Origin: Aspidapion aeneum
Lineage: Eukaryota; Arthropoda; Insecta; Coleoptera; Brentidae
Assembly (NCBI GenBank): GCA_963576565.1
Contig: OY755039.1
Coordinates: 143,599,369-143,663,368, forward strand
DNA: 64,000 nucleotides
Reading direction: 5' to 3'
A program made the position numbers and the translations under genes. Below the pieces are notes generated by a model. The model saw nothing but the letters and a program-made list of their open reading frames with translations. It searched no databases and had not been told where the DNA came from. Of the stretch, positions 9,349-53,796 are shown piece by piece; the stretch's first letter is position 1; each line of letters begins with the position of its first letter.

Positions 9349-10070
9349 TAAAAATAAATCAAACAAGTTTCATGGCTAATCGGGCAAAAAGGAGTTTTTT
9401 GTTTCCCTTATATTTTTCCGTGGGTAGCTTGAAAGCTTAACCTCACGGGGGTCCAAGATCTAATGGACACCTAATAAGTGTTGACAGTTAACCGTTTCGT
9501 CCTTATGAGACTCCTCAGAACACTGCTGGTCAAGTGACAAATCTTGCGAAGTTAATCAGACGGTTTTGTCTCTAATTAAATGTAATTAGTGAGCGAACTA
9601 TAGCAAGAAGCGCCATCTACCGAGATACGAGAGAAACAAAAAACCAAAAGCAGGGAAAAACACTGCTATACAATGTCGATTAATGAAAAGATCGAATGCA
9701 AATAAAAGAAAACAACTATAGTCCGTGACCTACGACAGCTCTTTGTCTTTTCAGGCCGGATCAACGCATTTTGCATTTTTACCCGTCATCAAGACAGTGA
9801 GCGTCAATCAACGGAATTTTTAAGCCAAATAATACTAACAAACGTGAAATTTCATACCCGTGAATTTAAAAATCAAACAAGTTTCATGGCAATCGGTTAA
9901 CTGTCAACACTTATTAGGTGTCCATTAGATCTTGGACCCCCGTGAGGTTAAGCTTTCAAGCTACCCACGGAAAAATATAAGGGAAACAAAAAACTCCTTT
10001 TTGCCCGATTAGCCATGAAACTTGTTTGATTTTTAAATTCACGGGTATGAAATTTCACGTTTGTTAATAA
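9349..10070. mobile_element. Ribozyme-bearing foldback repeat (family B), copy 1
   Basis: The left arm (about 9355-9490) and right arm (about 9890-10034) are inverted copies, including 'aatcaaacaagtttcatgg', 'gtgggtagcttgaaagctt' and 'gggggtccaagatctaatgg'. The left arm carries a minus-strand hammerhead ribozyme (9477-9524); the right arm starts inside the ribozyme's stem III region. A related full copy is at 36526-37107 and a truncated one at 31958-32172. No protein frame is seen. The arrangement resembles Penelope-dependent nonautonomous elements, which is inference. Confidence 0.65.
9477..9524 (-). ncRNA. Hammerhead ribozyme motif
   Basis: On the minus strand the order is: stem I AGTGTT (9524-9519), core CTGAGGA (matches CUGANGA), stem II GTCT/GGAC around a CATAA loop, core GAAA (9498-9495), stem III ACGG-TTAA-CTGT, cleavage base C17 at 9483, then stem I partner AACACT (9482-9477). 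All conserved core positions are present and all three stems pair, with only G-U wobbles. This is the layout of small hammerheads found in Penelope-like elements and retrozymes. Predicted self-cleavage lies between 9483 and 9482. Activity is not shown. Confidence 0.85.
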
Positions 10071-10389
10071 AAATAAAACACAGCAGTCCCGCTAAATAAA
10101 ATATGTTGTAAATACGACAGAAGTATTTAGTCTCCGCATTAAAACGGAAAGAGGTAATTCCCCGGCTGCAGAGTTGCCAACATACTACATAATCTTTATA
10201 ACCATGTCGTGCAGCGCTCCGCCCCGTTCTAAGAGGTTCACGTCCGGTTAAGGGAGCTTTCAGAGTTTTTTAACTAAAAAAAAATGTCCGCCTCTGTCCG
10301 GTTATATGAGTGAATTTTACATGTAAAGAAATAGGCTTGGTTCCAACAAATTTGTCCGGTTAAAAGAGAGGTTTTACTATATTTGGTTT

Positions 10390-20575: not shown

Positions 20576-20789
20576 TATTTGGGGTTCCCACAGGTTATCA
20601 TTAAGTTAAAAAAAAAATCGTAGAAAGATCTCAAAGGAAAATTGCATTACAGTCCAATGTCAAAAACTGAATTCTTAACGCTGGGCAAATACCTCTTAGG
20701 CACAGTGGTAAATTGAACATAAAGAAGTTTGGCTGTAATAGCAAAGTTTTAAAAAAACATTTCAAAAACTAGTAAGAATCTTTTATTTT

Positions 20790-21408
20790 AAAGAACACCG
20801 CACCCGTTTACACAGGCCTTATGGGAAATTTTTGGCTCGGTGGAATCAGCTATAATTTTAGTATGTTATAGTAGGATACGTAGCTAAAAAAATGTAAGTA
20901 AAGTTAAGTTTTTCTATGTACAGTTTTTGAGATATAAACGATCAAAGTTCGTTAAATGGTCATTTTTGGGTATGTTCTAATAGTAATAACTCTTAAATCT
21001 TGACCGAAAAAAATTAATTGACCATAAAAATTACTTAGTAAATGTCTAAGGCATTGACGTCCGGTTAATACGTTAATGGTCTAAGGACAGAGTCACTTAT
21101 GATGTCATTCTTGTCAATTTATTAAATAATATACGGGGGATAGTCAAAAGAACATTTTTTTTATATCTGCACTATTACCGAATTTTATTACTAGCATATT
21201 TTATTTTGGCACTGATTAATAGTTTTATATAATTTTTAAAGAAAATTTTTGTTTTTTTATTGCCCCCACTTTTATAGAAATAATTTTTTTTATTGCAGGT
21301 CTTTTTTAATTTTTGTTATATGGAAAATAGCTTAAATTTTATTAGTAAGAAAAAAACCATAACAAAAATTTGCCATAAGGCCTGTGTAAACGGGTGCGAT
21401 GTTCTTTG
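20790..21408. repeat. Inverted repeat inside the duplicated block
   Basis: 'aagaacaccgcacccgttta' with 'cacaggccttatgg' at 20790-20824 is inverted at 21373-21407. The corresponding copy in block 2 is near 34229-34890. Probably an old TIR element already present before the block was duplicated. Confidence 0.65.
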
Positions 21409-21539
21409 TATTGAAGAACTTGGCTTTACTTTTATCTCATTTCTTTTTACGGAATACCATTTTTGCATAGTTGGCTTTTTTAAAATGAAACGTTTTTGTT
21501 TCTATTTGAGGTGTTTTTAGGTCCTTCGGAAATGGTGAC

Positions 21540-21543
21540 ATAT
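21540..21543. other. 4-bp target duplication ATAT, left
   Basis: ATAT precedes the left LTR and recurs at 31065-31068. The second block copy has a single ATAT at 35029-35032 in otherwise matching sequence, so the empty site is directly visible. Confidence 0.95.
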
Positions 21544-23210
21544 TGTAGCATTTTTATTTCCCAGCCCATATTTTCTTAAAAATGCTACATTCGATTATTT
21601 TTAGTACATTAAATTCTATTTAAAAACATTTTATTATCATAAATAATTTTATAATAATTTGTATATTTTTTTATAGTAGTAAAGACGAGATGTCTTATAT
21701 AATTCATTAAATTTAATCTGCAACATTTCATCATGATCATTAAATGTGCAAAACCTTTTGACGGTCACTGGCAAAATTTTAGTTTAATTTAAAATAATAA
21801 AACTTGTTAGGAGCCACTGGTCACGGTTTTCAAATATCGAGAAAATACATGGTGTATCTACATCGAACAAATGCGAGGACATTTTTTGCTCCTGAGTTTG
21901 GAGATCTGGGGGCAAACTTGCTGCACGGAGACAAAGGTTTCAGTGTGGGAAATATCGGCCAACTATATGTGTGATTTTCAAATCGCCACCGGCAGATTTT
22001 CTCACAGCTCACATTTAAGTGATTTCAATTGAAAGTTCTGATGAGCTGTATTTAGTTAAAACCATATTCTGTTTTTGTGTTGAGTGAAGGATTATCTGAA
22101 ATTATGCTATCTTGGTATCAATGAGCGCAGCGGTGTTGCTGTCTTGGTTGCTGTGTTGCAAAATCAATTTTACCTGTTGCTGCCAGAAAGCGATTTATTT
22201 TCCCAACAACTTCCTCGATATTAAAACTATGTGGAGAGCTTATCTTTAGGAGTTACCCTCAAGGTTGAGGGTGCCAGGTACGAGTCAAAGCTTAGTCACA
22301 AGATACGTGTCAAGAGTCAAAGTTTGTCTTGCCAGATAGAAGTCAAGTTTAGAGTAAAAGCTCGTAGTCAAAAGTTACGTCATTATGAAACGGGTCATTG
22401 CCTGACCAAATTACTTCTGTCACCAGTACGCGGCAGAAATACAGCTATTTCCACTACATGGAGCTTGAAGAAGTTATGGTTTTGCAGGTTTTTATAAAGA
22501 AATAAGTCACGCACAGATGTGTAAATTTTCGCTATTATTTTATGGAATCTCTATTTTTTTAGAGATGATTTTGATAAAAAATACAGTTTAAAATCTGCGC
22601 TGCGCCTACTTAAAATTCATGAATTTTTACAGGTTGCCTCTGCTTGCGTTACGTAAATTGCGGTGATGATAACATGTCAAAATCATCTTAGATTTAATTT
22701 TTTTGGTATTTTCTAGGTTAAGACTTAGGGAAAGACTAGAATAAAATATTGTTACTTTTGTAAAATCTTTTCAGGTTTTAGACAATAAATTTAGAAATTG
22801 TCATATAATCACATTTATTTTAATTTATAAAATATCCATTACCTACCTACACAGTCAGTATTTAATATATTTAGTTCTGGAGATATTTAACTGACTTCAG
22901 TTAATTAAATATCACCAGATTACAATAATCTCGAGAACATAATGACCATCCAATCAAATTAAATATACGGGGTTTCCTAATTTTACCAGATATGATCTTT
23001 AGTTCCCGAGATATTTATATACATAAAATTGGGTGGCGCTCAACATTTTTGTTAAAGTAAATAATTCATATTTTCAATTACCTTCTCTGTTAATTTTTGT
23101 ACCACTTTATTCAAATCCCACAGTGCTCTCCGGCGAACAGCTACCGTAGCTATGTTAGCTGTCTAAAAAACGCTACACTAGCTATGTTAGCTGTCTAAAA
23201 AAACGCTACA
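21544..23210 (+). repeat. Left LTR
   Basis: TGTAGC...CGCTACA, 1667 bp. Its last 33 bp ('agctatgttagctgtctaaa' plus 'cgctaca') are tandemly duplicated compared with the right LTR. Short open frames inside recur identically in the right LTR (21830/29716 and 22231/30117) and have no domain; they are not counted as genes. Confidence 0.95.
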
Positions 23211-23218
23211 CATATTTA

Positions 23219-23236
23219 TGGCGCCCAACGTGGGGC
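23219..23236 (+). promoter_or_regulatory. Primer binding site, tRNA-Lys type
   Basis: TGGCGCCCAACGTGGGGC begins 8 bases after the left LTR. It is complementary to the 3' end of tRNA-Lys(CTT), including CCA, so minus-strand DNA synthesis would start there. Confidence 0.9.
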
Positions 23237-24344
23237 TTTCATATAAAACCAAGCTTAGCAGAGTGGGAAGAGGAACTACAAAGTATTTTTTTAATAAAAA
23301 AAAAAATTTTCTTTGTTATTTTTGAAGTTATTTTTTTTGATAAACTGACTGTAGGCAAGGGTGTGTTTTGTATATAACTAGAGAACTTTAATAATAGAAA
23401 TTTAATTCTTTTAAACAGAAAATATTTTATTCTAGTCAAATAAATAAAAGTTTTTTCTATACAGGCTTTAAAAATAATTCTTGCTGCTTAAAATTAAAAG
23501 TAGCATGCAAAAGAAAAAATGTGGCTCATAAAAAGTTATGTTTTTTTGCGCTTGACAACAACACTTTATAAAAATCGGTTGTATTTTTTTTAAACAAGAA
23601 AACAAGACCGCGTCAAGTCTTGTTTTTTTAATTTAACATTTCGAGGCGTATTATTTTATTTTAGGTGAGCATAAGAGTTAATGCATTATAGAGATTTAGC
23701 GTACGTAAATAGCGTAGCATTAGAGAGATATTGAAAAAATTTATACGCTATTTGGTTGACTCGTGTCCGGCAAAATTTGGTAATATTGAGTTTGAGCTTA
23801 TATGATTTTAGGTATTTTTTTTTTGAAAGCTCAAATTTTTTTTTGACAGCTTAATTTTTTGAAAGCATTAAATTATAGCTTGGATATTGTCCTAATTTAT
23901 TTGCTTAGGTTCGCTAGAACATTAGATTTTAAAAACTTGAATATGTAAGTGCGGCTTTTACAAAGAAGGTTTAGTAAAACCTAACTTTTTATTATCTAGG
24001 GATTTCGATCGCTATTTTGATACCCCAAAGATTTTTTTTAAAATTGCATAAATATTTTTTTTTATCATTTTCCTATGAGAACTAGCGAGCAACTGCTACT
24101 GAGAAACTTAGAAATTTTTATTTTCCGTAACAAAAAATCATTAAATTGATACCACACCAAAAGATAAAAAAAAAAATTTAACTTTGTTTTTTTATAGATT
24201 TTTTTTGTGGCAAAGACTTTATACCTTTTGTATTTCGCAAATATTTTTCTCTAAATTGATAGCCCTCAAAATATTTTTCATTTAATTTTTTAAATTTTAT
24301 ATTTTCAAAATTGAATCATTCATATATTTTAAAACATTTTAAAA

Positions 24345-25754
24345 ATGGATTACGTAATTAAAAGTGCTTCACACTTGACCGAAGCGGAGTTAGATTATGA
24401 ACTACAAATTAGAGATGTTGGTATAGCTAGACCTACCCCAGATAAGCGAAAAGTACTTGCGCCGTCTTTTAGCTAAGGAAAAAATTCAACCAGGCAAATT
24501 GTGTTGTACCAGATGCTTATAAATATACATTTTCTATTGAAAAAGAAGCAATTAAGACTTCAGTTGATTCAATTACAGAACAGATTGAAGATTTTGAAGG
24601 GAACCTGTCAAGATTCGATTTTTGTCAAACTTTTGTCGCGTATAGCTCACGTGAGCCAGAGGCTCGAACGATTAAAAGCTACGGTTACTGATACGGAAGA
24701 TAATACTGTAGAGGTAACAAATTTTAAAAAGGAAACTAAAGCTACTTATCTTAAATTGGAGGATGATTTGATGGAAAAATCAACTAAGGGAAACCAGAGA
24801 CCGACATCCCCTCTCTTCCCAACTTTTCAAACTCCAGTAATTAATGTTGCACCACCGGTGATTTCTTGTAATTCTAAAAATATTCCTATCTCAGAATGGG
24901 GTATAAAATTTAACGGAGATCCGAGAAATCTTTATTCATTTTTAGAACGCGGTAGTGAATTGGCAGCTTCTCGAAAAGTCAGTAATGACGAACTTTTTCA
25001 ATCAGCAGTTGAGTTTTTTATAAATACGCACGCATTCGCTTGGTATAGGAGAATTAAAAGTACACTTACAAATTGGGATTCATTGGTAGAGCGATTAAAA
25101 AAAGATTTTTTGTTGTCAGAAAATGATGAGGTTGTCTGGACAGAGATTCGGGCAAGGAAGCAAAAACCAAACGAGTCTGTTCATATTTTTTGTGGTCATT
25201 TAGAAGTTTTATTTAACAGATTATCTCGTCCTCCTCATGAAAGCACAAAAGTAAAACATGTTCGTAAAAATTTATTGTTTGGCTATGCGAGTCGTCTTGC
25301 TATTTCAGATTTTAATACAGTCGATGAACTGATTGATAGTTGTAGGAAAATTGATGAGTCAAATATTTTACAGTACGATTCTTCTCACAATATTTCTACT
25401 CTTTATGGTAACGATAGAACCGATTCTAATTTTAAATCTAGATATTTCGAATATAAAAAAGAGAATCAACAAAAACAATTTAAAAAACATAATGATTTTT
25501 CTAAACATAAAAATAATAGAAATTTTAATTTTCAAAAAGAAAGAAATAATTCAAAACCTTTAAATAGAAGCAATGATGACATTGAACATTCTGAAGGGCC
25601 TTCACAAAGGCACCGAGAACCAATAACTTGTTTTAACTGCGGTCAGTTAAATCATGTTTTTTCTGATTGCAAATTAAAGAGAAAATTATTTTGTTACAAA
25701 TGTGGTGCTCCAGATGTTCGAGTTAGCAATCGTCCATCTTGTTCAAAAAACTAA
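24345..25754 (+). pseudogene. gag: gag of the Ty3/Gypsy element, three apparent frameshifts
   Basis: The natural start is ATG 24345, whose frame reads an acidic helical N-terminus (SHLTEAELDYELQIRDVG). The coding sense then shifts by one base three times, near 24447 (AAAA), 24481 (A6) and 24605 (T5), returning to the first frame, which stays open to TAA 25752. The C-terminal part has a basic Asn/Lys-rich stretch and a CCHC zinc knuckle (CFNCGQLNHVFSDC). A second Cys cluster (CYKCGAPD..) follows, with Arg where a Cys would be expected in 'NRPSC'. Gag would form the particle and bind RNA. All three shifts are single extra bases in homopolymers, so the true gene may be intact. Confidence 0.85.
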
Positions 25755-28700
25755 ATAAGAAGGTGCATTTTAGTGGTTCGTGCACTGGTAAGTATTCCGA
25801 TTTTTCCGTAACCACATCTGTAAATAAAACTCTAAGCAATAAAAATAAATTTAGTTTAGCTGATTGGGAAGAATGGAAAAATACTGTATCAAAATTTTTC
25901 AAACAGTCGCGTGTAAATAAAATTTCCCCTCTTTTTATAGAAAAGCCCTTAGATAATCGCCCTTATATACAAGTTAAGTTATATGATCAAAATATAACCG
26001 TTTTATTAGATTCGGGTGCTACTAGTTCCGTAGTAGGTTCCCCTGGAATTGAAATTTTAAAACATTTTAACTTGGAGATTAGGCACTCCTCTTTTGAGAA
26101 AATTTGTACAGCCGATGGATCTCGTAAAATCGTTGATGGTGAGGTAGATTTACCTATTTATGTAGGCCAAACATGTCGAATTGTAAGAGCTTTAGTTGTC
26201 TCTGCACTACCCCAAGCTTTCATTTTCGGAAGCGATTTTGCAAAGCTTTTTCAGATTTGTGTGGATTTTAAAGCAAATTCGTGGCATGTTCAATGCGGTT
26301 TTATTGAAAATGAGTTAAATGTTATTTCAGTGCCGGATTCTAATAAAGTTTTTAGTTTTCTGCATTCTTTAGATTCTTTGAGTGAGTCTGACCGTCTAAG
26401 AGCGGAATCAGTTATAAAATCATTTGAAGATATTTCTAGTAAAGACCATATAGGTTGTACTGATGAATTAAAGTTGACAATTGATACAGGGAGTGCAAAG
26501 CCCTTTAGGAAACGTCCGTACCCACTTTCACCCTATATGTCTAAAATTTTGAACGACGAAATTGATGATATGTTAAGACTTGGGGTTATAGAACCCTCAA
26601 ATAGCCCTTGGTGCAGCCCAGTACTACTGGTGAAGAAGGCCAACGGTGAATTTCGCTTCTGCTTCGATGGGCGTGGCTTAAATGACGTCACAGTTCACGA
26701 TACATACCCACTACCTAATATAAATTCTATTTTGAGCATGTTAAGAGGTGCTAAGTATATTTCTTCAATCGATCTTCGTAAGGCATTTTGGCAAATTCCT
26801 CTCGATAATGAATCCAAACAAAAAACTGCATTTTCTGTTGTAGGTAGAGGATCCTTTCAGTTTAAAAGGGTTCCTTTTGGTTTGTGCAATGCTGCGCAAA
26901 CTCAACAAAGGTTAATTGATTCTATTTTTGGTGCGAAATATCCTAATATCTATTCCTATCTTGATGACCTTTGTTTGGCCAGTTCGGATTTAGAATCACA
27001 TTTAAAGTTACTGGAGGAAGTCCGTTTAAAATTGAAAGAGGCAAATCTTACAATTAACCTTGAAAAATCGGAGTTCTTCAAAACAGAAGTCAAGTTCCTT
27101 GGCTTTATTATTGGCTCAAACTCTCTTAGAACAGATCCTGAGAAAGTTTCTTGTATGATTAACTACCCCAGGCCTCGAACTACCACGGAGATAAAACGTT
27201 GGATAGGTCTTTGTTCTTGGTACCGTCGTTTTGTCAAAGATTTTGCTACTTTAATGGCTCCAATCAATGATCTTTTAAAAGGAAAAAAGAAAAATCAGCC
27301 GATCACTTGGTCTGAAGCGGCGGAGGAGTCGTTTGTCAAGGTCAAGCAGCTGTTGGTGTCCGCTCCAGTCTTAGCACAGCCAGACTATAGTGAGATGTTC
27401 ACGATACAGTGTGATGCGTCAAATGTAGGTCTAGGTGGTGTTCTGACACAGATTTTAGATGGCGAGGAGAAGGTAATCGCTTATGCCAGTAGGAGTTTGT
27501 CCAGAACAGAGAGAAATTATTCTACTGTAGAAAAGGAGTGTTTGGCAGTAATCTTTGCAATAGAACGTTTTCGCTGTTACGTAGAAGGTGCAAGTAAGTT
27601 CACGGTAATCACAGACTGCTATTCCTTGTTGTGGTTAAATAATATAAAAAATCCAAGTGGTAAGTTGGCTCGATGGGCTGTTAAATTAAGAGAACATAAT
27701 TTCGAATTGGTACACAGAAAGCGTACGTCAAATGTGGTACCTGATGCATTGTCTCGCATTCCTCCGGAAGTATCGTTAGTTGAGATAGATTTAGAGCAAA
27801 ATGATAACTGGTATGTAGATCTTCGATCCAAAATTCGTTCTGATCCTGAAATGTTTCCACAGTGGAAAGTTGATGGTGATTTTGTTTACAAGTTCATTCC
27901 AGAAAAATCTTATGTAAAAACTAGTCTTCCTGAATGGAAATTCTTAGTTCCTAAACATCAGAGAGTAAGCGTGTTAAAATGTTCTCATGATGAGAAAACT
28001 TCAGGACATTTTGGTTTCTTCAAAACTTTGTCTCGTGTACAGGAACTATATTATTGGCCCAAAATTAGAAGAGATGTCCTTCGATATTGCAAGTCTTGTA
28101 AGGTTTGTGGTTCTCAAAAAGCTTCAAATACTCGACAAATGGGACTCATGGGTAAAGAAAAGAAAATTAGCTATCCATTTGAAATGGTTGCCCTTGATCT
28201 AATGGGACCTTTTCCTCTGTCAAAGAGAAAAAATCGATTTATTCTTGTAGTTAGCGATTGGTTTACAAAGTACCAACTAATCTGCCCTCTTCGTTCTGCA
28301 AAAATTGGTCCAATAAATAAGTTTCTGGAAGAACAAGTATTTCTGGTTTATGGAGTTAGTAATTTGGTAATTGCAGATAATGGTTGTTTTAAAGCCAAAA
28401 GTTTTCGTGATCTTTGTAGCAATTATGGTATTGAAAAGGTTTGGTATACTGCTGTGTATTCACCTCAATGCAATTATGTTGAAAGGAATAACCGGACTGC
28501 TGGAACAATAATTCGATGTTTTGTAGAATCACATACAGATTGGGATATTGATATAGCTAAATGTCAACATGCTATTAACACTAGTAAGCATGAAGTTCAT
28601 GGCTACACCCCAGCATTTTTAAATTTCGGTAGACACATTCCTTCACATGCTGATTTTTATAAGTTAACCTCGGGTTCAATACATGAAGATGTTGAGATTC

Positions 28701-29101
28701 TCCCAGGCGATAGAAATGGTTATGCTGCAAATTTGAAGGGTATGAAAGAAATTTATTCCGAAGTTAGACAAAAGCTGCACGCAGCTTATGAGCGAAATAG
28801 TAAATCGTATAATTTAAGAAAAAGTGATATTGAGTTTAAAGTAGGAGACTATGTCTGGAGAAGAAATAAAATTCTCTCAGACGCTGGAAAGCGCTTTATG
28901 GCTAAACTTGCTCCTAGGTACATATTATGTACAGTTAAGAAGAAAATTTCTCGTTTAGTGTATGATTTGCGTGAGGTTGATTCCGGTCGTATGGTTAAAA
29001 ATTGGCATATAAAAGACCTAAAACCTTACCAAGAATATGATATTAATCAGTCGGATTCTGAAAATCCTTCAGAACTGTCTGAACAAGAAAATTTAGACTA
29101 A
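25739..29101 (+). CDS. pol: pol polyprotein of the Ty3/Gypsy element
   Basis: One uninterrupted frame of 1120 codons, entered by -1 frameshift from gag; there is no need for a start codon, and the first 16 bases overlap gag. Domains in order: aspartic protease with DSGA (residues 91-94); reverse transcriptase with SIDLRKAFWQ (D345) and YLDD (407-410); RNase H with CDAS (D559), E600 and TDC (D626); integrase with an HHCC zinc finger (H750/H757, C784/C787/C790 region), then D820, D880 and E915, giving the D,D(34)E spacing, and a GPY/F-like end (KLAPRY..). All catalytic residues are present. Products would cut the polyprotein, copy RNA to DNA and insert it in the genome. 'YSPQCNYVER' around E915 is an unusual version of the usual HPQ.N motif. 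No env follows. Confidence 0.96.
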   Translation: MFKKLNKKVHFSGSCTGKYSDFSVTTSVNKTLSNKNKFSLADWEEWKNTVSKFFKQSRVNKISPLFIEKPLDNRPYIQVKLYDQNITVLLDSGATSSVVGSPGIEILKHFNLEIRHSSFEKICTADGSRKIVDGEVDLPIYVGQTCRIVRALVVSALPQAFIFGSDFAKLFQICVDFKANSWHVQCGFIENELNVISVPDSNKVFSFLHSLDSLSESDRLRAESVIKSFEDISSKDHIGCTDELKLTIDTGSAKPFRKRPYPLSPYMSKILNDEIDDMLRLGVIEPSNSPWCSPVLLVKKANGEFRFCFDGRGLNDVTVHDTYPLPNINSILSMLRGAKYISSIDLRKAFWQIPLDNESKQKTAFSVVGRGSFQFKRVPFGLCNAAQTQQRLIDSIFGAKYPNIYSYLDDLCLASSDLESHLKLLEEVRLKLKEANLTINLEKSEFFKTEVKFLGFIIGSNSLRTDPEKVSCMINYPRPRTTTEIKRWIGLCSWYRRFVKDFATLMAPINDLLKGKKKNQPITWSEAAEESFVKVKQLLVSAPVLAQPDYSEMFTIQCDASNVGLGGVLTQILDGEEKVIAYASRSLSRTERNYSTVEKECLAVIFAIERFRCYVEGASKFTVITDCYSLLWLNNIKNPSGKLARWAVKLREHNFELVHRKRTSNVVPDALSRIPPEVSLVEIDLEQNDNWYVDLRSKIRSDPEMFPQWKVDGDFVYKFIPEKSYVKTSLPEWKFLVPKHQRVSVLKCSHDEKTSGHFGFFKTLSRVQELYYWPKIRRDVLRYCKSCKVCGSQKASNTRQMGLMGKEKKISYPFEMVALDLMGPFPLSKRKNRFILVVSDWFTKYQLICPLRSAKIGPINKFLEEQVFLVYGVSNLVIADNGCFKAKSFRDLCSNYGIEKVWYTAVYSPQCNYVERNNRTAGTIIRCFVESHTDWDIDIAKCQHAINTSKHEVHGYTPAFLNFGRHIPSHADFYKLTSGSIHEDVEILPGDRNGYAANLKGMKEIYSEVRQKLHAAYERNSKSYNLRKSDIEFKVGDYVWRRNKILSDAGKRFMAKLAPRYILCTVKKKISRLVYDLREVDSGRMVKNWHIKDLKPYQEYDINQSDSENPSELSEQENLD
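25745..25751 (+). promoter_or_regulatory. -1 ribosomal frameshift heptamer A AAA AAC
   Basis: In gag frame the codons read TCA AAA AAC TAA, so the slippery heptamer A AAA AAC sits directly before the gag stop. A one-base backward slip enters the pol frame. This is the classic X XXY YYZ arrangement. Confidence 0.85.
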
Positions 29102-29428
29102 GTCTATCTCTTACCATTGCGGTGCACCAATGTGTAGGAATAGTTATCCTTCCAATTTCGATTTTCGTGTTTGTACATAGCTTTTGGTGTTATTCTTTTG
29201 TTGATTTTGTTCTTTGCTTGGAAAGGAACATACCGATTTAGAGCCTACTCCATTATGACCTACCGATTTTGTCTCCTTTCAGGACGTTTAATACGCGTTA
29301 GATATTAAGTTTCAAGCTAAAGGCATAAAGAAATCGACATTAGTTTATGTAAAATAGATTTAATATTTTTGTCACGATGATTATGGATCATCAAGACAAA
29401 ACTATTATTGCTTTTAGGAGGGGGGCTG
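29102..29428 (+). other. 3' untranslated part and polypurine tract
   Basis: No env-like frame. The purine run AGGAGGGGGG (29416-29425) lies three bases before the right LTR and is the likely plus-strand primer. Confidence 0.85.
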
Positions 29429-31064
29429 TGTAGCATTTTTATTTCCCAGCCCTTATTTTCTTAAAAATGCTACATTCGATTATTTTTAGTACATTAAATT
29501 CTATTTAAAAACATTTTATTATCATAAATAATTTTATAATAATTTGTATATTTTTTTTATAGTAGTAAAGACGAGATGTCTTATATAATTCATTAAATTT
29601 AATCTGCAACATTTCATCATGATCATTAAATGTGCAAAACCTTTTGACGGTCACTGGCAAAATTTTAGTTTAATTTAAAATAATAAAACTTGTTAGGAGC
29701 CACTGGTCACGGTTTTCAAATATCGAGAAAATACATGGTGTATCTACATCGAACAAATGCGAGGACATTTTTTGCTCCTGAGTTTGGAGATCTGGGGGCA
29801 AACTTGCTGCACGGAGACAAAGGTTTCAGTGTGGGAAATATCGGCCAACTATATGTGTGATTTTCAAATCGCCACCGGCAGATTTTCTCACAGCTCACAT
29901 TTAAGTGATTTCAATTGAAAGTTCTGATGAGCTGTATTTAGTTAAAACCATATTCTGTTTTTGTGTTGAGTGAAGGATTATCTGAAATTATGCTATCTTG
30001 GTATCAATGAGCGCAGCGGTGTTGCTGTCTTGGTTGCTGTGTTGCAAAATCAATTTTACCTGTTGCTGCCAGAAAGCGATTTATTTTCCCAACAACTTCC
30101 TCGATATTAAAACTATGTGGAGAGCTTATCTTTAGGAGTTACCCTCAAGGTTGAGGGTGCCAGGTACGAGTCAAAGCTTAGTCACAAGATACGTGTCAAG
30201 AGTCAAAGTTTGTCTTGCCAGATAGAAGTCAAGTTTAGAGTAAAAGCTCGTAGTCAAAAGTTACGTCATTATGAAACGGGTCATTGCCTGACCAAATTAC
30301 TTCTGTCACCAGTACGCGGCAGAAATACAGCTATTTCCACTACATGGAGCTTGAAGAAGTTATGGTTTTGCAGGTTTTTATAAAGAAATAAGTCACGCAC
30401 AGATGTGTAAATTTTCGCTATTATTTTATGGAATCTCTATTTTTTTAGAGATGATTTTGATAAAAAATACAGTTTAAAATCTGCGCTGCGCCTACTTAAA
30501 ATTCATGAATTTTTACAGGTTGCCTCTGCTTGCGTTACGTAAATTGCGGTGATGATAACATGTCAAAATCATCTTAGATTTAATTTTTTTGGTATTTTCT
30601 AGGTTAAGACTTAGGGAAAGACTAGAATAAAATATTGTTACTTTTGTAAAATCTTTTTCAGGTTTTAGACAATAAATTTAGAAATTGTCATATAATCACA
30701 TTTATTTTAATTTATAAAATATCCATTACCTACCTACACAGTCAGTATTTAATATAATTAGTTCTGGAGATATTTAACTGACTTCAGTTAATTAAATATC
30801 ACCAGATTACAATAATCTCGAGAACATAATGACCATCCAATCAAATTAAATATACTGGGTTTCCTAATTTTACCAGATATGATCTTTAGTTCCCGAGATA
30901 TTTATATACATAAAATTGGGTGGCGCTCAACATTTTTGTTAAAGTAAATAATTCATATTTTCAATTACCTTCTCTGTTAATTTTTGTACCACTTTATTCA
31001 AATCCCACAGTGCTCTCCGGCGAACAGCTACCGTAGCTATGTTAGCTGTCTAAAAAACGCTACA
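29429..31064 (+). repeat. Right LTR
   Basis: 1636 bp, TGTAGC...CTACA, nearly identical to the left LTR (for example 'cccata' versus 'ccctta' near the start, and 'tatacggg' versus 'tatactgg' late). Followed by the ATAT duplication at 31065-31068. Confidence 0.96.
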
Positions 31065-31226
31065 ATATAATTTCGGTTAAATGAAAAAAAAGGTGGCCCT
31101 ATGCCGAGCTCAATCACATGTTGTATCCATACAAAAAAAATATCTACAGGATGTTTCAAAATATTTAGCAAAAACCGAGGGGTAAATATCTGCCCAAAAA
31201 GTTGTACACCATAAATACTTTTTGGC

Positions 31227-31392
31227 AATTAAATCCCTAGAAATCCTAATAAATCCCTAGGAATCCTGTTAAATCACCAATAATTTCCTATAAATCCTAA
31301 TAAGAACCCATTAATTTCTTTAAATCCCAATAATTCCGAAGAAATCCCGATAAATCCCCATAAATCCGAATACATCCCCGTAAATCCTATAT
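31227..31392. repeat. Degenerate AAATCC-type short tandem repeat, copy 1
   Basis: About 14 irregular units of the type 'aaatcc.nata' (9-13 bp). The same stretch, with the same unit order, is at 35168-35332, so it predates the block duplication. Confidence 0.75.
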
Positions 31393-31957
31393 AGTTTTAC
31401 TTATGTAGCTTGTTTTTAATTTAAACTTGGAAAATGACCTGACGGCATCGATGCGAGCGCAGGCAGGGGCAAACAATAAGATGCATTCAAAGATTTTAAT
31501 TAAAAAATTTATTAGCATTTATGCGGTTAACAAGTCAAGCCATTGAGATTAACTAATAACATGTCAACAGTTCTGCTTTTAATTTTATGAGATCCTTAGC
31601 TTGCAAAAGGTGGAGTAGTCGCAATTTTGACATATTATGTCGTTTATTATAGGAGTCCTAAACAGAAATTTGAGTTTTCGACATTGGGGGTAGCCGGCTC
31701 CCCCCCTCCATCTTGGATTTAATGTGCACGAAAAAGTTCTGTTTAAATTACTTGGTCCCTGTCCCGAGTTTTAAAGCACTCTAGCATCTTAGACCTTTTA
31801 GTAAATACTGGTGTAAACTCGCCCATTTTTTTAATGTCATCTTATGTTTCCTACATTTGGAGAATAGAAAGAAGCAGTGCGTTATTTGGCAACACCGAAT
31901 GGTTTAAAAACCAAAAATTGTTTTTTTTTAGAGAAATTGCAAATAAGATTAGTTAAA

Positions 31958-32172
31958 AATGAAACAAGTTTCGTGGCTAATCGGGTAAAAAGGAGTTTTT
32001 GTTCCTCTCATATTTTTCCGAGGGTAGCTCGAAAGCTTAAACTTACGGGGGTCCAAGATCTAATGGACACTTAATAAATGTTGACAGTTTCGTCCTTCTG
32101 GGGCTCCTCAGAACACTGCTTCATCAATGTCACACTCTTGCGAAGTTAATTAGACGGTTTGTCTCTCCTCAG
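31958..32172. mobile_element. Family B repeat, truncated copy
   Basis: Matches the left arm of the copy at 36526 ('aaacaagtttcgtggctaat' onward) and stops at the start of the 320-bp array. It carries the ribozyme-like segment at 32077-32117. Confidence 0.8.
32077..32117 (-). ncRNA. Degenerate hammerhead ribozyme motif
   Basis: Minus strand: AGTGTT, CTGAGGA, stem II GCCC/GGAC with one C-A mismatch, GAAA, C17 at 32083, AACATT. The core is intact but stem III is cut to ACTGT, which cannot form a normal loop, so cleavage would need dimer pairing or is lost. Confidence 0.55.
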
Positions 32173-32244
32173 TAAACACCATATTTCATATTTCTTTTTC
32201 AGATACCCACATCATCATTTCATCTCCTTCCATTTTATGGTTAT

Positions 32245-32290
32245 GCTCGGGCTGAACGAAGCCTAATGAGGCCGAAACGCGTCCCCGAGC
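32245..32290 (+). ncRNA. Hammerhead-like motif, array unit 1
   Basis: Stem I GCTCGGG pairs perfectly with CCCGAGC; between them are CTGAACGA (one base longer than CUGANGA), a short stem GCC/GGC with loop TAATGA, GAAA, and the palindrome ACGCGT as a minimal stem III followed by C17 (32283). Small stem III of this kind is known from hammerheads that cut as dimers. The extra core base is a caution. Confidence 0.6.
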
Positions 32291-32565
32291 TACCTTTACC
32301 TCTGAGGACTTGCCCGTGAAACTTTTTTGTTAAGACTTTTTACCTCGTGAACTTCCTTCAAATTTAAAAAATCCAGGGCTCAGGCTGTTTTCTGGGAGCA
32401 GATTATATCTGTCTCCGTCGCGACATCAAAATTAGCCCCAAAACAGAGGCAACCCTGACCGAAGCTGCAAATTGACAGTTGGTCTCTCCTCAGTAAACAC
32501 CATATTTCATATTTCTTTTTCAGATAGCCACATCATCATTTCATGTCCTTCCATTTTATGGTTAT

Positions 32566-32611
32566 GCTCGGGCTGAACGAAGCCTAATGAGGCCGAAACG
32601 CGTCCCCGAGC
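32566..32611 (+). ncRNA. Hammerhead-like motif, array unit 2
   Basis: Same sequence and pairing as in unit 1, with core CTGAACGA and GAAA. Confidence 0.6.
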
Positions 32612-32885
32612 TACCTTTACCTCTGAGGACTTGCCCGGAAACTTTTTCGTTAAGACTTTTTACCTCGTGAACTTCCTTCAAATTTAAAAAATCCAGGGCT
32701 CAGGCTGTTTTCTGGGAGCAGATTATATCTGTCTCCGTCGCGACATCAAAATTAGCCCCAAAACCGAGGCAACCCTGACCGAAGCTGCAAATTGACAGTT
32801 GGTCTCTTCTCAGTAAACACCGTATTTCATATTTCTTTTTCAGATACCCACATCATCATTTCATCTCCTTCCATTTTATGGTTAT

Positions 32886-32931
32886 GCTCGGGCTGAATGA
32901 AGCCTAATGAGGCCGAAACGCGTCCCCGAGC
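32886..32931 (+). ncRNA. Hammerhead-like motif, array unit 3
   Basis: Core reads CTGAATGA instead of CTGAACGA; stem I, GAAA and ACGCGT are kept. Confidence 0.58.
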
Positions 32932-33206
32932 TACCTTTACCTCTGAGGACTTGCCCGTGAAACTTTTTTGTTAAGACTTTTTACCTCGTGAACTTCCTTC
33001 AAATTTAAAAAATCCAGGGCTCAGGCTGTTTTCTGGGAGCAGATTATATCTGTCTCCGTCGCGACATCAAAATTAGCCCCAAAACAGAGGCAACCCTGAC
33101 CGAAGCTGCAAATTGACAGTTGGTCTCTCCTCAGTAAACACCATATTTCATATTTCTTTTTCAGATAGCCACATCATCATTTCATGTCCTTCCATTTTAT
33201 GGTTAT

Positions 33207-33252
33207 GCTCGGGCTGAACGAAGCCTAATGAGGCCGAAACGCGTCCCCGAGC
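33207..33252 (+). ncRNA. Hammerhead-like motif, array unit 4
   Basis: Identical in the conserved parts to units 1 and 2. Confidence 0.6.
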
Positions 33253-33526
33253 TACCTTTACCTCTGAGGACTTGCCCGGAAACTTTTTCGTTAAGACTTT
33301 TTACCTCGTGAACTTCCTTCAAATTTAAAAAATCCAGGGCTCAGGCTGTTTTCTGGGAGCAGATTATATCTGTCTCCGTCGCGACATCAAAATTAGCCCC
33401 AAAACCGAGGCAACCCTGACCGAAGCTGCAAATTGACAGTTGGTCTCTTCTCAGTAAACACCATATTTCATATTTCTTTTTCAGATACCCACATCATCAT
33501 TTCATCTCCTTCCATTTTATGGTTAT

Positions 33527-33572
33527 GCTCGGGCTGAATGAAGCCTAATGAGGCCGAAACGCGTCCCCGAGC
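33527..33572 (+). ncRNA. Hammerhead-like motif, array unit 5
   Basis: Same as unit 3 (CTGAATGA core). Confidence 0.58.
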
Positions 33573-33847
33573 TACCTTTACCTCTGAGGACTTGCCCGTG
33601 AAACTTTTTTGTTAAGACTTTTTACCTCGTGAACTTCCTTCAAATTTAAAAAATCCAGGGCTCAGGCTGTTTTCTGGGAGCAGATTATATCTGTCTCCGT
33701 CGCGACATCAAAATTAGCCCCAAAACCGAGGCAACCCTGACCGAAGCTGCAAATTGACAGTTGGTCTCTCCTCAGTAAACACCATATTTCATATTTCTTT
33801 TTCAGATACCCACATCATCATTTCATTTCCTTCCATTTTATGGTTAT

Positions 33848-33893
33848 GCTCGGGCTGAATGAAACCTAATGAGGCCAAAACGCGTCCCCGAGC
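33848..33893 (+). ncRNA. Hammerhead-like motif, array unit 6, core mutated
   Basis: The GAAA core is changed ('ggccaaaacgcg' in place of 'ggccgaaacgcg') and stem II is altered (gaaacc), so this terminal copy is probably dead. Confidence 0.5.
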
Positions 33894-35167
33894 TACCTTT
33901 ACCTCTGAGGACTTGCCCGTGAAACTTTTTTGTTAAGACTTTTTACCTTGTGAACTTCCTTCAAATTTAAAAATAGTAGGGAGATTTCAAAGGAAAATTG
34001 CCTTATAGTCCAATGTCAAAAACGGAATTATTAACGCTGAGCAAATGCCTCTTAGGCACAGTGCTAAATTGAACATAAAGAAGTTTGGCTGTAATAGCAA
34101 AGTTTAAAAAAAAAATTCAAACTAGTAAGAACCTTTCATTTTAAAGAACACCAAAAACTCAAATAAAAAAATCACTTGCGGCCTTTTAACTATCGGGGGT
34201 AGATGTCATGTTCAAGGGCGGTTAGGTCACCCGTTTACACAGGCCTTATGGGAAATTTTTGACTCGGTGGAATCGGTTATAATTTTAGTATGTTATAGTA
34301 GGATATGTAGCTAAAAAAATGTAAGTAAAGTTAAGTTTTTCTATGTACAGTTTTTGAGAAATAAACGATCAAACTTCGTTACATGGTTGTTTTTGGGTAT
34401 GTTCTAATAATAATAACTCTTAAATCTTGACCGAAAAAAAATAATTGACCATAAAAATTACTTAGTAAATGTCTAAGGCATTAACGTCCGGTTAATACGT
34501 TAATGGTCTAAGGACAGAGTCACTTATGATGTCATTCTTGTCAATTTATTAAATAATATACGGGGGATAGTCAAAAGAACATTTTTTTTATATCTGCACT
34601 ATTACCGAATTTTATAACTACCATATTTTATTTTGGCACTGATTAATAGTTTTATATAATATTTAAAGAAAAAAAATATTTTTGTTTTTTATTGCCCCCA
34701 CTTTTATAGATATTATTTTTTTATTGCAGGTCTTTTTTAATTTTTGTCATACGGAAAATAGGTTAAAAAAGCTAAAGTCAATTTTGTTTAGTAAGAAAAA
34801 AATTATAACATACTAAAATTATAGCCAATTACACCGAACCAAAAATTTGCTATAAGGCCTGTGTAAATGGGTGCGGTGTTCTTTGTATTGGAGAACTTGG
34901 CTTTACTTTTATCTCAGTTCTTTTTACGGAATACCATTTTTACATAGTTGGCTTTTTAAAATGAAACGTTTTTGTTATGATTTTTTATTTCTATTTGAGG
35001 TGTTATTAGGTCCTTCGGAAATGGTGACATATAATTTCGGTTCAATGAAAAAAATCACATTTTGTATCCATGCAAAAAAAATATCTACAGGATGTTTCAA
35101 AATATTTAGCAAAAACCGAGGGGTAAATATCTGCCCAAAAAGTTGTACACCATAAATACTTTTTGGC

Positions 35168-35332
35168 AATTAAATCCCTAGAAATCCTAATAAATCCCTA
35201 GGAATCCTGTTAAATCACCAATAATTTCCTATAAATCCTAATAAGAACCCATTAATTTCTTTAAATCCCAATAATTCCGAAGAAATCCCGATAAATCCCC
35301 ATAAATCCGAATACATCCCCGTAAATCCTATA
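35168..35332. repeat. Degenerate AAATCC-type short tandem repeat, copy 2
   Basis: Same unit order as 31227-31392. Confidence 0.75.
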
Positions 35333-35556
35333 TAGTTTTACTTATGTAGCTTGTTTTTAATTTAAACTTGGAAAATGACCTGACGGCATCGATGCGAGCG
35401 CAGGCAGGGGCAAATAATAAGATGCATTCAAAGATTTTAATTAAAAAAATTATTAGCATTTATGCGGTTAACAAGTCAAGCCATTGAGATTAACTAATAA
35501 CATGTCAACAGTTCTGCTTTTAATTTTATGAGATCCTTAGCTTGCAAAAGGTGGAG

Positions 35557-36168
35557 CAGGGCTATCAAAATGGACGGGCCACGATCCTCCACTTTGTTGA
35601 CGTCACATCCGGGGCTGATTTTTTTTTGATGGTCACGCTACGACACAGCTGATTGTCTTTAAAATATTGAAGTTGGAATGACAGTTCATGAATATTTGAT
35701 TTTTTTTAAATAAAGCCGTTTTTGAGATTGTTTTTACTTTATTCTGGCAGAACAATTTTTTTTTAATGTATGGTTATCTCTAATTTTTCATAGCCGCTTC
35801 ATTAGCTCACACAAAAATTAAGTTTAAAGCAATAGCGAATGTGACAATCACAGATGACAAAGTCAAATACATGTTAAATATAACAGTTGGCATGTGGTAC
35901 ATGGCGGGTAATTTGAATTCAAAATAAGGAATGCTAAATCTTGAAGATTTTAACCTTTTAATCATGTGTTGCTTCCTTACAAACCTTTGGTGGAATATCG
36001 GGATGGTGTCTGAGAATATTTCACTGAAATTTTGCGGAAATCTGTAGTGCCATTTTGAAAATATCATAAAAAAACGTCTGACCTCCCATAAGACCCAATG
36101 TAAAATTCAGCCCCGGGAGAACAGCTGATTTTTTCAGGGTCGTGGCCTCTATTTTTATGTTGGCCTTG
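35557..36168 (-). mobile_element. Family C TIR element, copy 2, 7-bp TSD with empty site
   Basis: Inverse orientation relative to copy 1 (15994-16604). Starts CAGGGCTATC and ends GTTGGCCTTG; flanked by GGTGGAG at 35550-35556 and 36169-36175. The matching place in block copy 1 (about 31611) has GGTGGAG only once, so the empty site confirms the ends (a 6-bp reading, GTGGAG, is possible). Noncoding. Confidence 0.92.
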
Positions 36169-36525
36169 GGTGGAGTAGTCGCAATTTTGACATATTATGT
36201 CGTTTATTATAGGAGTCCTAAACAGAAATTTGAGTTTTCGACAGTGGGGGTAGCCGGCTCCCCCCCTCCATCTTGGATTTAATGTGCACGAAAAAGTTTT
36301 TTTTAAATTACTTGGTCCCTGTCCCGAGTTTTAAAGCACTCTAGCATCTTAGACCTTTTAGTAAATACTGGTGTAAACTCGCCCATTTTTTTAATGTCAT
36401 CTTATGTTTCCTACATTTGAGGAATAGAAAGAAGCAGTGCGTTATTTGGCAACACCGAATGGTTTAAAAACCAAAAATTTTTTTTTTTTTTAGAGAAATT
36501 GCAAATAAGATTAGTTAAAAATGAA

Positions 36526-37107
36526 ACAAGTTTCGTGGCTAATCGGGTAAAAAGGAGTTTTTGTTCCTCTCATATTTTTCCGAGGGTAGCTCGAAAGCTT
36601 AAACTTACGGGGGTCCAAGATCTAATGGACACTTAATAAATGTTGACAGTTTCGTCCTTCTGGGGCTCCTCAGAACACTGCTTCATCAATGTCACACTCT
36701 TGCGAAGTTAATTAGACGGTTTGTCTCTAATCCTATGTAAATAGTGAGAAATCTCTCGCAAGAAGCGCCATCTACCGAGATACGTGAGAAACCAGAACAA
36801 GAGCAGACGAAAAAGATCGATTACAAATAAAAAGAAACAAACTAATCCGTGACCTACGACAGCTATTTTACCTTTCAGGCCAGATCAACGCTTATTGCGT
36901 TTTTATCCGCCATCAGACACGTGAACGTCAATCAGCGGAATTTTTAAGCCAAACAATACTAACAAACGTGAAATTTAGTACCCGCGAGGTTAAGCATTCG
37001 AGCTACCCACGGAAAAATATGAGAGAAACAAAAACTCCTTTTTACCCGATTAGCCACGAAACCTGTTTGATTTTTAAATTCACGTATACTAAATTTCAGT
37101 TTTGTTA
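36526..37107. mobile_element. Family B ribozyme-bearing repeat, full-length copy
   Basis: Left arm with 'aaacaagtttcgtggctaat' and 'ggtccaagatctaatgg'; right arm inverted (about 36985-37080) with 'gctacccacggaaaaatatg' and 'cgattagccacgaaacctg'. The centre (about 36690-36980) matches 9545-9885. Carries the motif at 36639-36679. The left 200 bases belong to block copy 2, so the element predates the duplication. Confidence 0.75.
36639..36679 (-). ncRNA. Degenerate hammerhead ribozyme motif
   Basis: Same as the copy at 32077-32117: intact CTGAGGA and GAAA cores, stem I AGTGTT/AACATT, shortened stem III. Confidence 0.55.
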
Positions 37108-37109
37108 AG

Positions 37110-37598
37110 ATTAGTAAAATTCTGGTTAAATGTTCAAAGGTTCATAATTTTGTATTAGCGACCATACGACCAAACAAATAACGTTTACGATTTTTTTCTA
37201 GCTCTTATACTTTTTTTGAGAAACCGTTTTGTAAAAGATATCTTTGAGATGTCTGAAAACTAACATTTATCAAACATTTAAAAAAGACGTATCTGAGATG
37301 TCGTCGTTTTTATCTTTTTACAAATTGACTTTTGCCTCAGGTTAAAAATAGTCAGTTTTATCTTTTGTGTATCCTATTATACTATTTTTATGGTCAGATT
37401 TTCTAAAAGCCATCCTATACATTTTGAAACGATATCTCCATAGTTTGGCACAGGCGTTTGCAAAAAGGAACAAAAAATAAGGAGATAAAGAAAGAATTTA
37501 CTTTAAAAGGGGTACACATAATATTTTATATACCGTGTATTTCAACATAACCTTAGCACAGACCTTTTAGCTCTTTTGAAATTTTAGTAGCCCGCGTC
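37110..37598. other. Spacer without a recognisable gene
   Basis: AT-rich, noncoding, no repeat ends found. Confidence 0.4.
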
Positions 37599-42420: not shown

Positions 42421-42982
42421 AAAATACTCTGCCAATTTATGGGCACTTAAGCTCACACTAGATACTATATTTATAGTGTACGTGTGAGCTAATATAACTA
42501 AAAACTGAAATATATTTTATTCAACTCTAGACTCAATTACCTGTCGTTTGATACCACACAAGCCATGTTATTACTTAAACTCAAATTTGTGAAATCTACC
42601 CCCACTTTAAAAAAAAAACTAAAATGTATTTTGTTTAACTTCAGACTCAATTACCTTTCGTTTGATATCACACACGCCATATTTTCACAGAAATTCTAAT
42701 TTTTGAAATTTACCCCCACCCTTTTTTTGTTAAATAAACTAAAAAGTATTTTGTTTAACTCCAGACTCAATTACCTTGCGTTTGATATCACACACGCCAT
42801 ATTTTTACATAAACTTAATTTTTGAAATCTACCCCCACCCTTTTATTTGGCTTGTGTTTGGTGGATTTTGTTTATTTTTAAATGGGACCATCTCGAGCTA
42901 AAACCCAGCTTAGGTACCAAATTTCATTAAAATCGGGCTAGCGGTTTTTGAGTTATGCGCGTTGGTCCTTACAGACAGACAT

Positions 42983-46630: not shown

Positions 46631-48829
<2,199 letters not shown>

Positions 48830-48900: not shown

Positions 48901-51167
<2,267 letters not shown>

Positions 51168-52635: not shown

Positions 52636-53197
52636 ATGTCGGTAACGACCAACGCCCATAACTCAAAAACCGCTCGGCCGATTTTAATGAAATTTGGTAC
52701 CTAGGCTGGGTCTTGGGTCGAGATGGCCCCACTTAAAAATGAACAAAATCCACCGAACACAAACCAAATAAAAGGGTGGGGGTAGATTTCAAAAATTAGA
52801 GTTTATGTGAAAATATGGCGTGTGTGATATCAAACGAAAGGTAATTGAGTCTGGAGTTAAACAAAATACATTTTAATTTATTTTAAAAAAAGGGTGGGGG
52901 TATATTTCAAAAATTCGAGTTTAAGTGAAAATATGGCGTGTGTGATATCAAACGAAAGGTAATTGAGTCCGGAGTTTAACAAAATACATTTTAGTTTTTG
53001 CTTTTTTTAAGGGTGGGGGTAGATTTTAAAAATTTGAGTTTAAGTCAAAACATGGCTTGTGTGGTATCAAACAAAAGGTAATTTAGTCTGGAGTTGAATA
53101 AAATATATTTCAGTTTTTAGTTATATTAGCTCACACGTAAACTATAACTATAGTACCTAGTGTGAGCTTAGGGGCCCATATATTGGCAGAGTATTTT
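52323..53197 (-). mobile_element. Repeat family A, double-ended copy
   Basis: A truncated 3' end (52323-52406) is followed by a second complete copy from about 52407, whose palindromic end is itself repeated ('agctcacacatatactatac' twice). CTGT tract at about 52579-52642 with two CTGTATGT variants. It abuts the hAT MITE's target duplication. Confidence 0.85.
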
Positions 53198-53796
53198 ATA
53201 TATCTTTGCGTTTCAGATGATTTTGAACCTTTTTTGTCGCGCCGTCTGTCTGTCTGTCTGTAACAACCAACGCGCATAACTCAAAAACCGCTTGCCCGAT
53301 TTTAATGAAATTTGGTACCTAGGCTGGGTCTTGGGTCGAGATGGTCCCACTTAAATATGAACAAAATCCACCCAACACAAGTCAACTAAAAGGGTGGGGG
53401 TAAATTTCAAAAATTAGATTTTATGTGAAAATACGGCGTGTGTGATATCAAACGAAAGGTAATTGAGCCTGGAGTTTAAAAAAAAATTGTTAAAAAAAAG
53501 GGTGGGGGTAGATTTAAAAAATTTGAGTTTAAGTGAAATTATGGCGTGTCTGATATCAAACGAAAGGTAATTAAGTTTGGAGTTAAACAAAATACATCTT
53601 AGTATAAAAAAAGGTGGGGGTAGATTTAAAAAATTAGAGTTTAAGTCAAAACATGGCTTGTGTGGTATCAAACGAAAGGTAATTGAGTCTGGAGTCGAAT
53701 AAAATATATTTGAGACTTTAGTTATAATATCTCACACGTATACTATAACTATAGTACCTAGTGTGAGCTTAGGTGCCCATATATTGGCAGAGTATT
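53197..53796 (-). mobile_element. Repeat family A copy, truncated 3' part, in tandem
   Basis: Starts inside the family at 'atatctttgcgtttcagatg' directly after the previous copy and runs to 'ggcagagtatttt'. The CTGT tract is only about 5 units (53245-53263). Confidence 0.85.

Follow-up and report, generated by a model that had tools for sequence, protein, structure and literature searches.

The 64,000-nucleotide window analysed here comes from the beetle Aspidapion aeneum (contig OY755039.1, positions 143,599,369 to 143,663,368, forward strand) and contains a tandem array of 320/321-bp units that carry a hammerhead-like ribozyme motif. The element is retrozyme-like, with a variant hammerhead and with insertion ends of the type found in Penelope-like elements; retrozymes as such, and the position of the extra base in the hammerhead core (A6a), were already known. 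At the level of the family, the arrays carry the Penelope-type insertion signature. Our preferred reading, to which we give a probability of a little under 0.8, is that of a mobile, non-coding, retrozyme-like repeat for which a Penelope-like enzyme provides reverse transcription in trans, with a predicted circular RNA as template. Papers are cited by PMC accession.

Tandem Repeats Finder calls a repeat at 32148-33973 with a period of 321, 5.7 copies and 97% matches, in agreement with the array of about 320-bp units that the original prediction had described. The start that had been given, 32161, is borne out by the flank: the first 19 nt of the call (32148-32166) are identical to a flank copy at 36710-36728, and the real 5′ junction therefore lies within GTCTCT at 32161-32166. 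In the features listed below, phase is the number of nucleotides counted from the predicted hammerhead cleavage site, and the tail coordinates in unit 1 were set by counting, using the ends of 17 insertions that could be resolved at other places in the genome.

32161-33973, plus strand: tandem array, 5.65 units of 320/321 bp with unit spacings of 321, 320, 321, 320 and 321
32161-32166, no strand assigned: 5′ junction, GTCTCT common to flank and unit (microhomology), without inverted piece and without target duplication
32284-32604, plus strand: unit 1 from one cleavage site to the next, 321 nt, with the same sequence as unit 3 (32925-33245)
32605-32924, plus strand: unit 2 from one cleavage site to the next, 320 nt, differing by one base from unit 4 (33246-33565)
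32330-32366, plus strand: tail region of unit 1, between the two inferred reverse transcriptase (RT) start points, at phases of about 47-48 and 79-83
33965-33973, plus strand: array 3′ end at a phase of about 79-87, A-rich and partly common with the flank; a fixed end that contains the tail
32239-32294, plus strand: hammerhead-like motif 1, predicted cleavage before 32284
32560-32615, plus strand: hammerhead-like motif 2, predicted cleavage before 32605
32880-32935, plus strand: hammerhead-like motif 3, predicted cleavage before 32925
33201-33256, plus strand: hammerhead-like motif 4, predicted cleavage before 33246
33521-33576, plus strand: hammerhead-like motif 5, predicted cleavage before 33566
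33842-33897, plus strand: hammerhead-like motif 6, with a core broken by G12A and an altered stem II

The window array has a GC content of 0.43-0.44, no coding frame of 150 aa or more and no terminal repeats resembling long terminal repeats (LTRs) except the units themselves. Because unit 1 equals unit 3 and units 2 and 4 are one base apart, a 641-bp duplication has occurred inside it. A dimeric RNA template had been considered for the alternation of units 1 to 4 and was dropped, since the terminal units are read as the ancestral state, which makes the later 641-bp duplication the simpler account.

All six motifs share the 7-bp stem I GCTCGGG/CCCGAGC, the core CTGAAYGA with one extra base, and the palindrome ACGCGT. 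These parts had been predicted in every unit together with GAAA, which holds for five of the six; motif 6 has AAAA in its place. The order of parts in the RNA is that of type I hammerheads (GGU-UAU-GCUCGGG, CUGAAYGA, stem II GCC/GGC with loop UAAUGA, GAAA, ACGCGU, C, CCCGAGC-U-ACC), stem I being composed of the 7 bp and an outer 3 bp beyond an internal loop. Pairing probabilities predicted for a lone motif are 0.92-1.0 in stem I and 0.94-0.97 in stem II, and two copies are predicted to pair via ACGCGU into a dimeric hammerhead with a 6-bp intermolecular stem III (cofold energy -45.3 for the dimer versus -18.9 kcal/mol for the single motif). Stems I and II, and a minimal stem III in the dimer, are thus predicted as in type I hammerheads. 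The core departs from the consensus CUGANGA ... GAAA ... NUH in being one base longer, with the extra base after A6, and positions 10.1-11.1 are A-C. As an extra base after A6 is a known rare variant (A6a), reported in 2011 with low activity (PMC3088659), the motif is filed as a hammerhead variant. A descriptor requiring at least 5 bp in stem I and at least 3 bp in stem II, with one or two bases at N in the core, finds five motifs in the window versus none in 40 dinucleotide shuffles, so that the motifs are not due to chance. The Rfam hammerhead models report no hammerhead in the whole window at gathering scores, and at E≤10 the stretches 31000-35500 and 32225-32640 give chance-level matches only, none of them a hammerhead; Rfam misses the family because of the variant core or the short stem III.

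The genome (1.29 Gb in 149 contigs) contains at least 256 matches to the 320-bp unit, counted from the best 40 of 1506 candidates. The extra-base core pattern, which places two bases between CTGA and GA, is matched exactly at 1,928 sites (control 0), compared with five for the canonical-core pattern (control 1). These five comprise a decayed family member (L047), a family inversion junction (L049) and three places without a unit match. At least one of the 1,928, C1:11954323, is by eye not a family member, a check that rests on the first places listed. As founder we took the majority sequence of each array that has at least three units. All 28 founders contain the extra base; position 10.1 is A in 24, G in three and undecided in one, and position 11.1 is C in 17 and A in 11. 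The extra base is therefore not a local defect: 28 of 28 founders and 1,928 matches make it the usual form in an amplified family, which sets it apart from the rare A6a variant whose position it shares. As a mark of a new variant, which is how it had been proposed, it is real and fixed in the sampled family, while its position is that already known (PMC3088659). A fuzzy search recovers 118 motifs, below the 196 full units in the sampled arrays. The copy-number search and the conservation of the fold between genomic copies, which had been put forward as checks, both came out in favour of a candidate retrozyme that is dispersed in many arrays. Another invertebrate tandem-repeat hammerhead, the pDo500 satellite of Dolichopoda cave crickets (PMC2837043), likewise varies in the core, at U7; unlike in the beetle family, its core has a single U7 position, and both sides of its stem III, also in the double form, belong to one sequence.

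At position 1501, the loci L048 and L050 hold two alike dispersed sequences, CTGAAGAAGCCTTGATAATGGAGC...CTCCGAAACGCGTC, neither of which matches the unit; they are perhaps another hammerhead-like element.

The signature that carries our reading is found at the insertion ends. The main sample consisted of 37 arrays (L009-L045) plus the window, reduced to 36 because L015 duplicates L014 and L044 duplicates L043; since these arrays were picked from the listed part of the 256 matches, which came from ranking by likeness to the window unit (best 40 of 1506 candidates), they are not a random sample. Their 3′ ends fall in phases 35-95 in 33 of 36 cases (Rayleigh R 0.80), in groups near 49 and near 78-89. 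The inner 5′ starts are scattered, with four of 34 in the same range and R 0.19 (L032 and L034, whose stretches are truncated, left out of this count). A head-to-head inverted piece of the unit stands at the 5′ side of 27 of 38 arrays, or 25 of 36 without the duplicates; in L034 it is incomplete at the end of the stretch and in L039 it is 35 nt long. The outer ends of these inverted pieces lie at the same two points (R 0.88, n=25), and the two sides of one insertion use opposite points in 20 of 25 loci, the same point in one and other positions in four.

The flanks agree with this layout. A flank string of at least 9 nt is held in common by 18 of 34 matched pairs versus 52 of 1122 mismatched pairs. 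Seventeen of the 24 inversion-bearing loci tested could be resolved, meaning that they show an inversion plus a duplication of at least 8 nt; their ends lie 27-46 nt apart (median 32) and their target duplications are 8-13 bp long and AT-rich. The first end is at phase 35 in one and 39 in another of these 17, and the others lie at 45-55 and 76-84. In a second sample of six loci, taken from the extra-base pattern list for compactness and with target duplications read by eye, the 3′ ends fall in phases 35-95 at all six, and inverted pieces, found at four loci by BLAST and at a fifth by eye, all end at the opposite point. Two of these six insertions, L070 and L073, contain less than one unit in direct orientation. 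As a lead only, the repeat CGTGAA(A)CTT occurs about 6-8 nt before each start point.

This layout is that of Penelope-like elements. Reverse transcription by a purified Penelope-like protein begins at two neighbouring sites inside its RNA and extends both target strands at AT-rich DNA, and the genomic tail of 30-40 bp is the stretch between the two start sites (PMC11167929). Counted into the open reading frame of that element, the hammerhead cuts at 26 bp and the main start is at 111-118 bp (PMC11167929), so that by subtraction the published start is 85-92 nt after the cut; in the beetle family the two points are at about 48 and 79-83 nt past the predicted cut. Rotifer Penelope insertions have an inverted pseudo-LTR (pLTR), an optional 31-bp tail and 8-10-bp duplications (one of 9 bp), and one of them has a 5′ junction formed by microhomology without a duplication (PMC3846280). 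The beetle family resembles these systems (PMC11167929, PMC3846280) in its two end points about 30-40 nt apart and downstream of the hammerhead, in the use of both strands, the head-to-head inverted end, the AT-rich targets and the tandem copies, and in target duplications of similar length. Two adjacent points, a head-to-head inverted end and a short duplication are all present at the family level; of these, the window array has only the fixed 3′ end, and it is a mild case with a microhomology 5′ junction. Unlike a Penelope-like element, which has RT and GIY-YIG in one frame, the retrozyme is a 320-bp unit with neither an RT nor a GIY-YIG frame.

Penelope-like elements are common in this genome, with at least 91 GIY-YIG matches (from the best 150 of 633 candidates), of which 4 + 15 loci were compared. 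Their proximity to the array, on which the original prediction had leaned, finds no support in the window, as GIY-YIG is absent from the 20 scanned frames of its 76 listed reading frames; the elements are numerous elsewhere in the genome. L051 and L052 have RT and GIY-YIG within one frame and, downstream of it, a minimal hammerhead with a 3-bp stem I; such a motif is found at none of four loci when 4 bp are asked for in stem I and at five of 19 when 3 bp are asked for. These hammerheads combine the 3-bp stem I with ACGT, in contrast to the perfect 7-bp stem I and six-base palindrome of the retrozyme. L051 ends at +59 from the cut on one side and at about +98 on the inverted side, with a head-to-head inverted copy and an 11-12-bp duplication. 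In a second Penelope-like family, read by eye, six of nine loci end at about +66 before TA-rich DNA and three of nine have the tail; L057 is ambiguous, and the TA-rich DNA after the end is a possible target. A search of solved structures with the L052 frame found nothing.

The splice-like phrase noticed at the outset, tttctttttcag, is indeed visible in all six units. Within the window, TTTCTTTTTCAG is repeated in each unit (32191-33805), and in the second Penelope-like family TTCTTTTTAG stands immediately upstream of the hammerhead. Penelope flanking repeats are said to contain spliceosomal introns (PMC11722881), and a 3′ splice site common to the retrozyme unit (TTTCTTTTTCAG) and this second family (TTCTTTTTAG) is possible.

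Among known elements, the array is most directly compared with the animal non-LTR retrozymes (PMC7229834). It shares with them tandem units of about 320 bp (within their range of about 170-400 bp), a GC content of 43-44% (below 50%), the type I motif order and the loops of stems I and II, a weak stem III with a palindromic tetraloop as in one axolotl family, and the lack of LTRs and of a protein frame (here none of 150 aa or more). Target duplications of more than 4 bp, another retrozyme trait, are present in the 17 resolved family members and absent from the window array. The family differs in its core sequence, with the extra base throughout the founders and a 10.1-11.1 mismatch in most, in a predicted circle that is not markedly self-paired (high self-pairing of the circular RNA is a retrozyme trait, perhaps not a defining one), and in its Penelope-type ends, a layout unmentioned in the consulted text of PMC7229834. 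Animal retrozymes have been proposed to depend on LINEs or Penelope-like elements as helpers, the latter as the strong candidate (PMC7229834); Penelope-like helpers were also proposed in a study that found no conserved repeat motif pointing to an autonomous partner (PMC7761336), and in a 2024 review the helper is still a LINE or a Penelope-like element (PMC11722881). Among titles and abstract openings, with subscription papers outside the search, we met no report of retrozyme insertion ends or of a fixed extra-base core.

Since the insertion ends bear the Penelope-like signature, reverse transcription in trans by a Penelope-like enzyme is likely. In the mechanism we envisage, array transcripts would cut themselves, probably after pairing into dimers via the ACGCGU palindrome, and ligation would turn the monomers into circles. 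The tail region, 48-83 nt past the cut, would be bound by a Penelope-like protein. Priming would then take place on the two target strands, each from a different start point; on one strand the enzyme would run several turns around the circle, creating the long arm, and the two cDNAs would then be joined head to head, or, as may have happened in the window array, microhomology would link a single cDNA to the target. The units of an array tend to cluster together (57 label changes, against a minimum of 37 and a shuffled mean of 162), and this clustering favours a single monomer, copied over many turns, as the template of the long arm. Inverted pieces, too, are mostly most like the array they belong to (mean rank 0.25, n=25, p 0.001).

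It is important to point out that several observations weigh against this reading. The window array itself has neither an inverted piece nor a target duplication. Among founders, conservation is no higher in the hammerhead than elsewhere in the unit: they show 30 differences in 56 hammerhead sites versus 92 in 264 other sites (Fisher p 0.06, towards more change in the hammerhead), and differences within arrays number 179 in the hammerhead versus 839 in the rest. By our own tally, positions 10.1 and 11.1, together with a spot in stem I that is prone to indels, account for 25 of the 30 founder differences. The core insertion and the 10.1-11.1 mismatch that most copies have are expected to reduce cleavage (PMC3088659). 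The predicted circle is not unusually self-paired (z -0.5, -0.05 and -0.29; 47-53% paired). Only 10 of 36 arrays are strictly monophyletic, and the clustering by array could come from local homogenisation instead. At five of 25 loci, the inverted piece is a closer match to at least 14 other arrays than to the array it belongs to, and both arms therefore need not derive from one molecule. A comparison of the retrozyme unit with the 19 Penelope-like loci found no sequence similarity (best E 0.2) and so points to no partner family. Finally, the in vitro insertion of a Penelope-like element did not depend on ribozyme cleavage (PMC11167929), and a linear multimer could thus act as template.

This last point opens onto an alternative that shares the enzyme with our reading and differs in the template: Penelope-mediated insertion from linear multimeric transcripts whose hammerhead no longer cleaves. 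The lowered activity expected of the A6a insertion and the mismatch, and the dispensability of cleavage in vitro, speak for it; the clustering by array, as expected from one-monomer templates, speaks against it, as does the single founder difference at the 14 catalytic-core sites versus 35 differences within arrays (own tally, small numbers). We regard it as unlikely, while taking it seriously. A different enzyme, that of a LINE, could have copied the RNA with twin priming, and the window does carry a LINE-type endonuclease and RT. LINE insertions show 5′ inversions and target duplications of the length seen here. Against it stand the array ends, which fall at two fixed places within the unit, with the long arm beginning at one or the other, and no long poly(A) run is seen by eye in the array ends displayed; the same two-point layout recurs in the Penelope-like elements examined in this genome, a comparison limited to Penelope-like ends. 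Taken together, this makes the LINE explanation improbable.

That the arrays are ordinary satellite DNA, grown by unequal exchange only and with the hammerhead-like fold as a passenger, would suit the 641-bp duplication in the window and the differences within arrays, which are mostly below the mean difference to other arrays, as homogenisation would also give. It does not suit the marks of insertion from RNA (ends at fixed points, a different start point on each side, pieces joined head to head and duplicated target sites), nor insertions of less than one direct unit such as L070 and L073, and we consider it very improbable. Unequal exchange may explain growth inside the window array, while the end signature opposes a satellite-like spread of the family. 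The layout is read from the assembly, and the inverted pieces and fixed ends might in principle be assembly artefacts; that the layout comes back at numerous independent places across many contigs, each with a target duplication of its own, makes this scarcely credible.

A wider and distinctly speculative idea, which we think doubtful as a whole, is that animal retrozymes are parasites of Penelope-like elements: each would combine a hammerhead with a Penelope tail 48-83 nt later and spread by rolling-circle, double-ended, target-primed reverse transcription, and in the present family the extra-base hammerhead, fixed and poor on its own, would cut only as a dimer or when bound by the Penelope protein, thereby sparing circles between rounds.

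The window also holds other repeats. A foldback element with inverted arms lies at 9356-10078 and 36519-37119, and its left part, also present at 31953-32166, directly adjoins the array; its copy at 9490-9518 (minus strand) includes a hammerhead-like motif whose core is canonical. The array marks the place where two direct host copies of about 2 kb meet (20613-21543 plus 31068-32166 versus 33969-36728), which per 100 aligned nt are 97-100% alike in the A and B parts and 88-98% in the C part, as if the insertion of the array had been accompanied by a tandem duplication of the host stretch. Inside the first host copy lies a Gypsy-type LTR retrotransposon (21544-31067) with two 1.64-kb repeats that are 99.6% alike and, by eye, a 4-bp ATAT duplication. 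Units of 112-118 bp occur in about three tandem copies at 1706-2025, 42500-42849, 47740-48087, 50744-51075, 52770-53118 and 53388-53706, reversed at some of these places and with (ACAG)n/(GTCT)n runs near several. A viral-contig pattern scan came up empty.

The enzyme that mobilises animal retrozymes has been proposed, not shown, in the literature (PMC7229834, PMC7761336). The end signature described here points to Penelope-like elements and names two start points, and it suggests that the length of an array reflects the number of turns that the enzyme made around the circle. Searches built on the canonical core would miss this family, as Rfam does, and other families may lie hidden in the same way.

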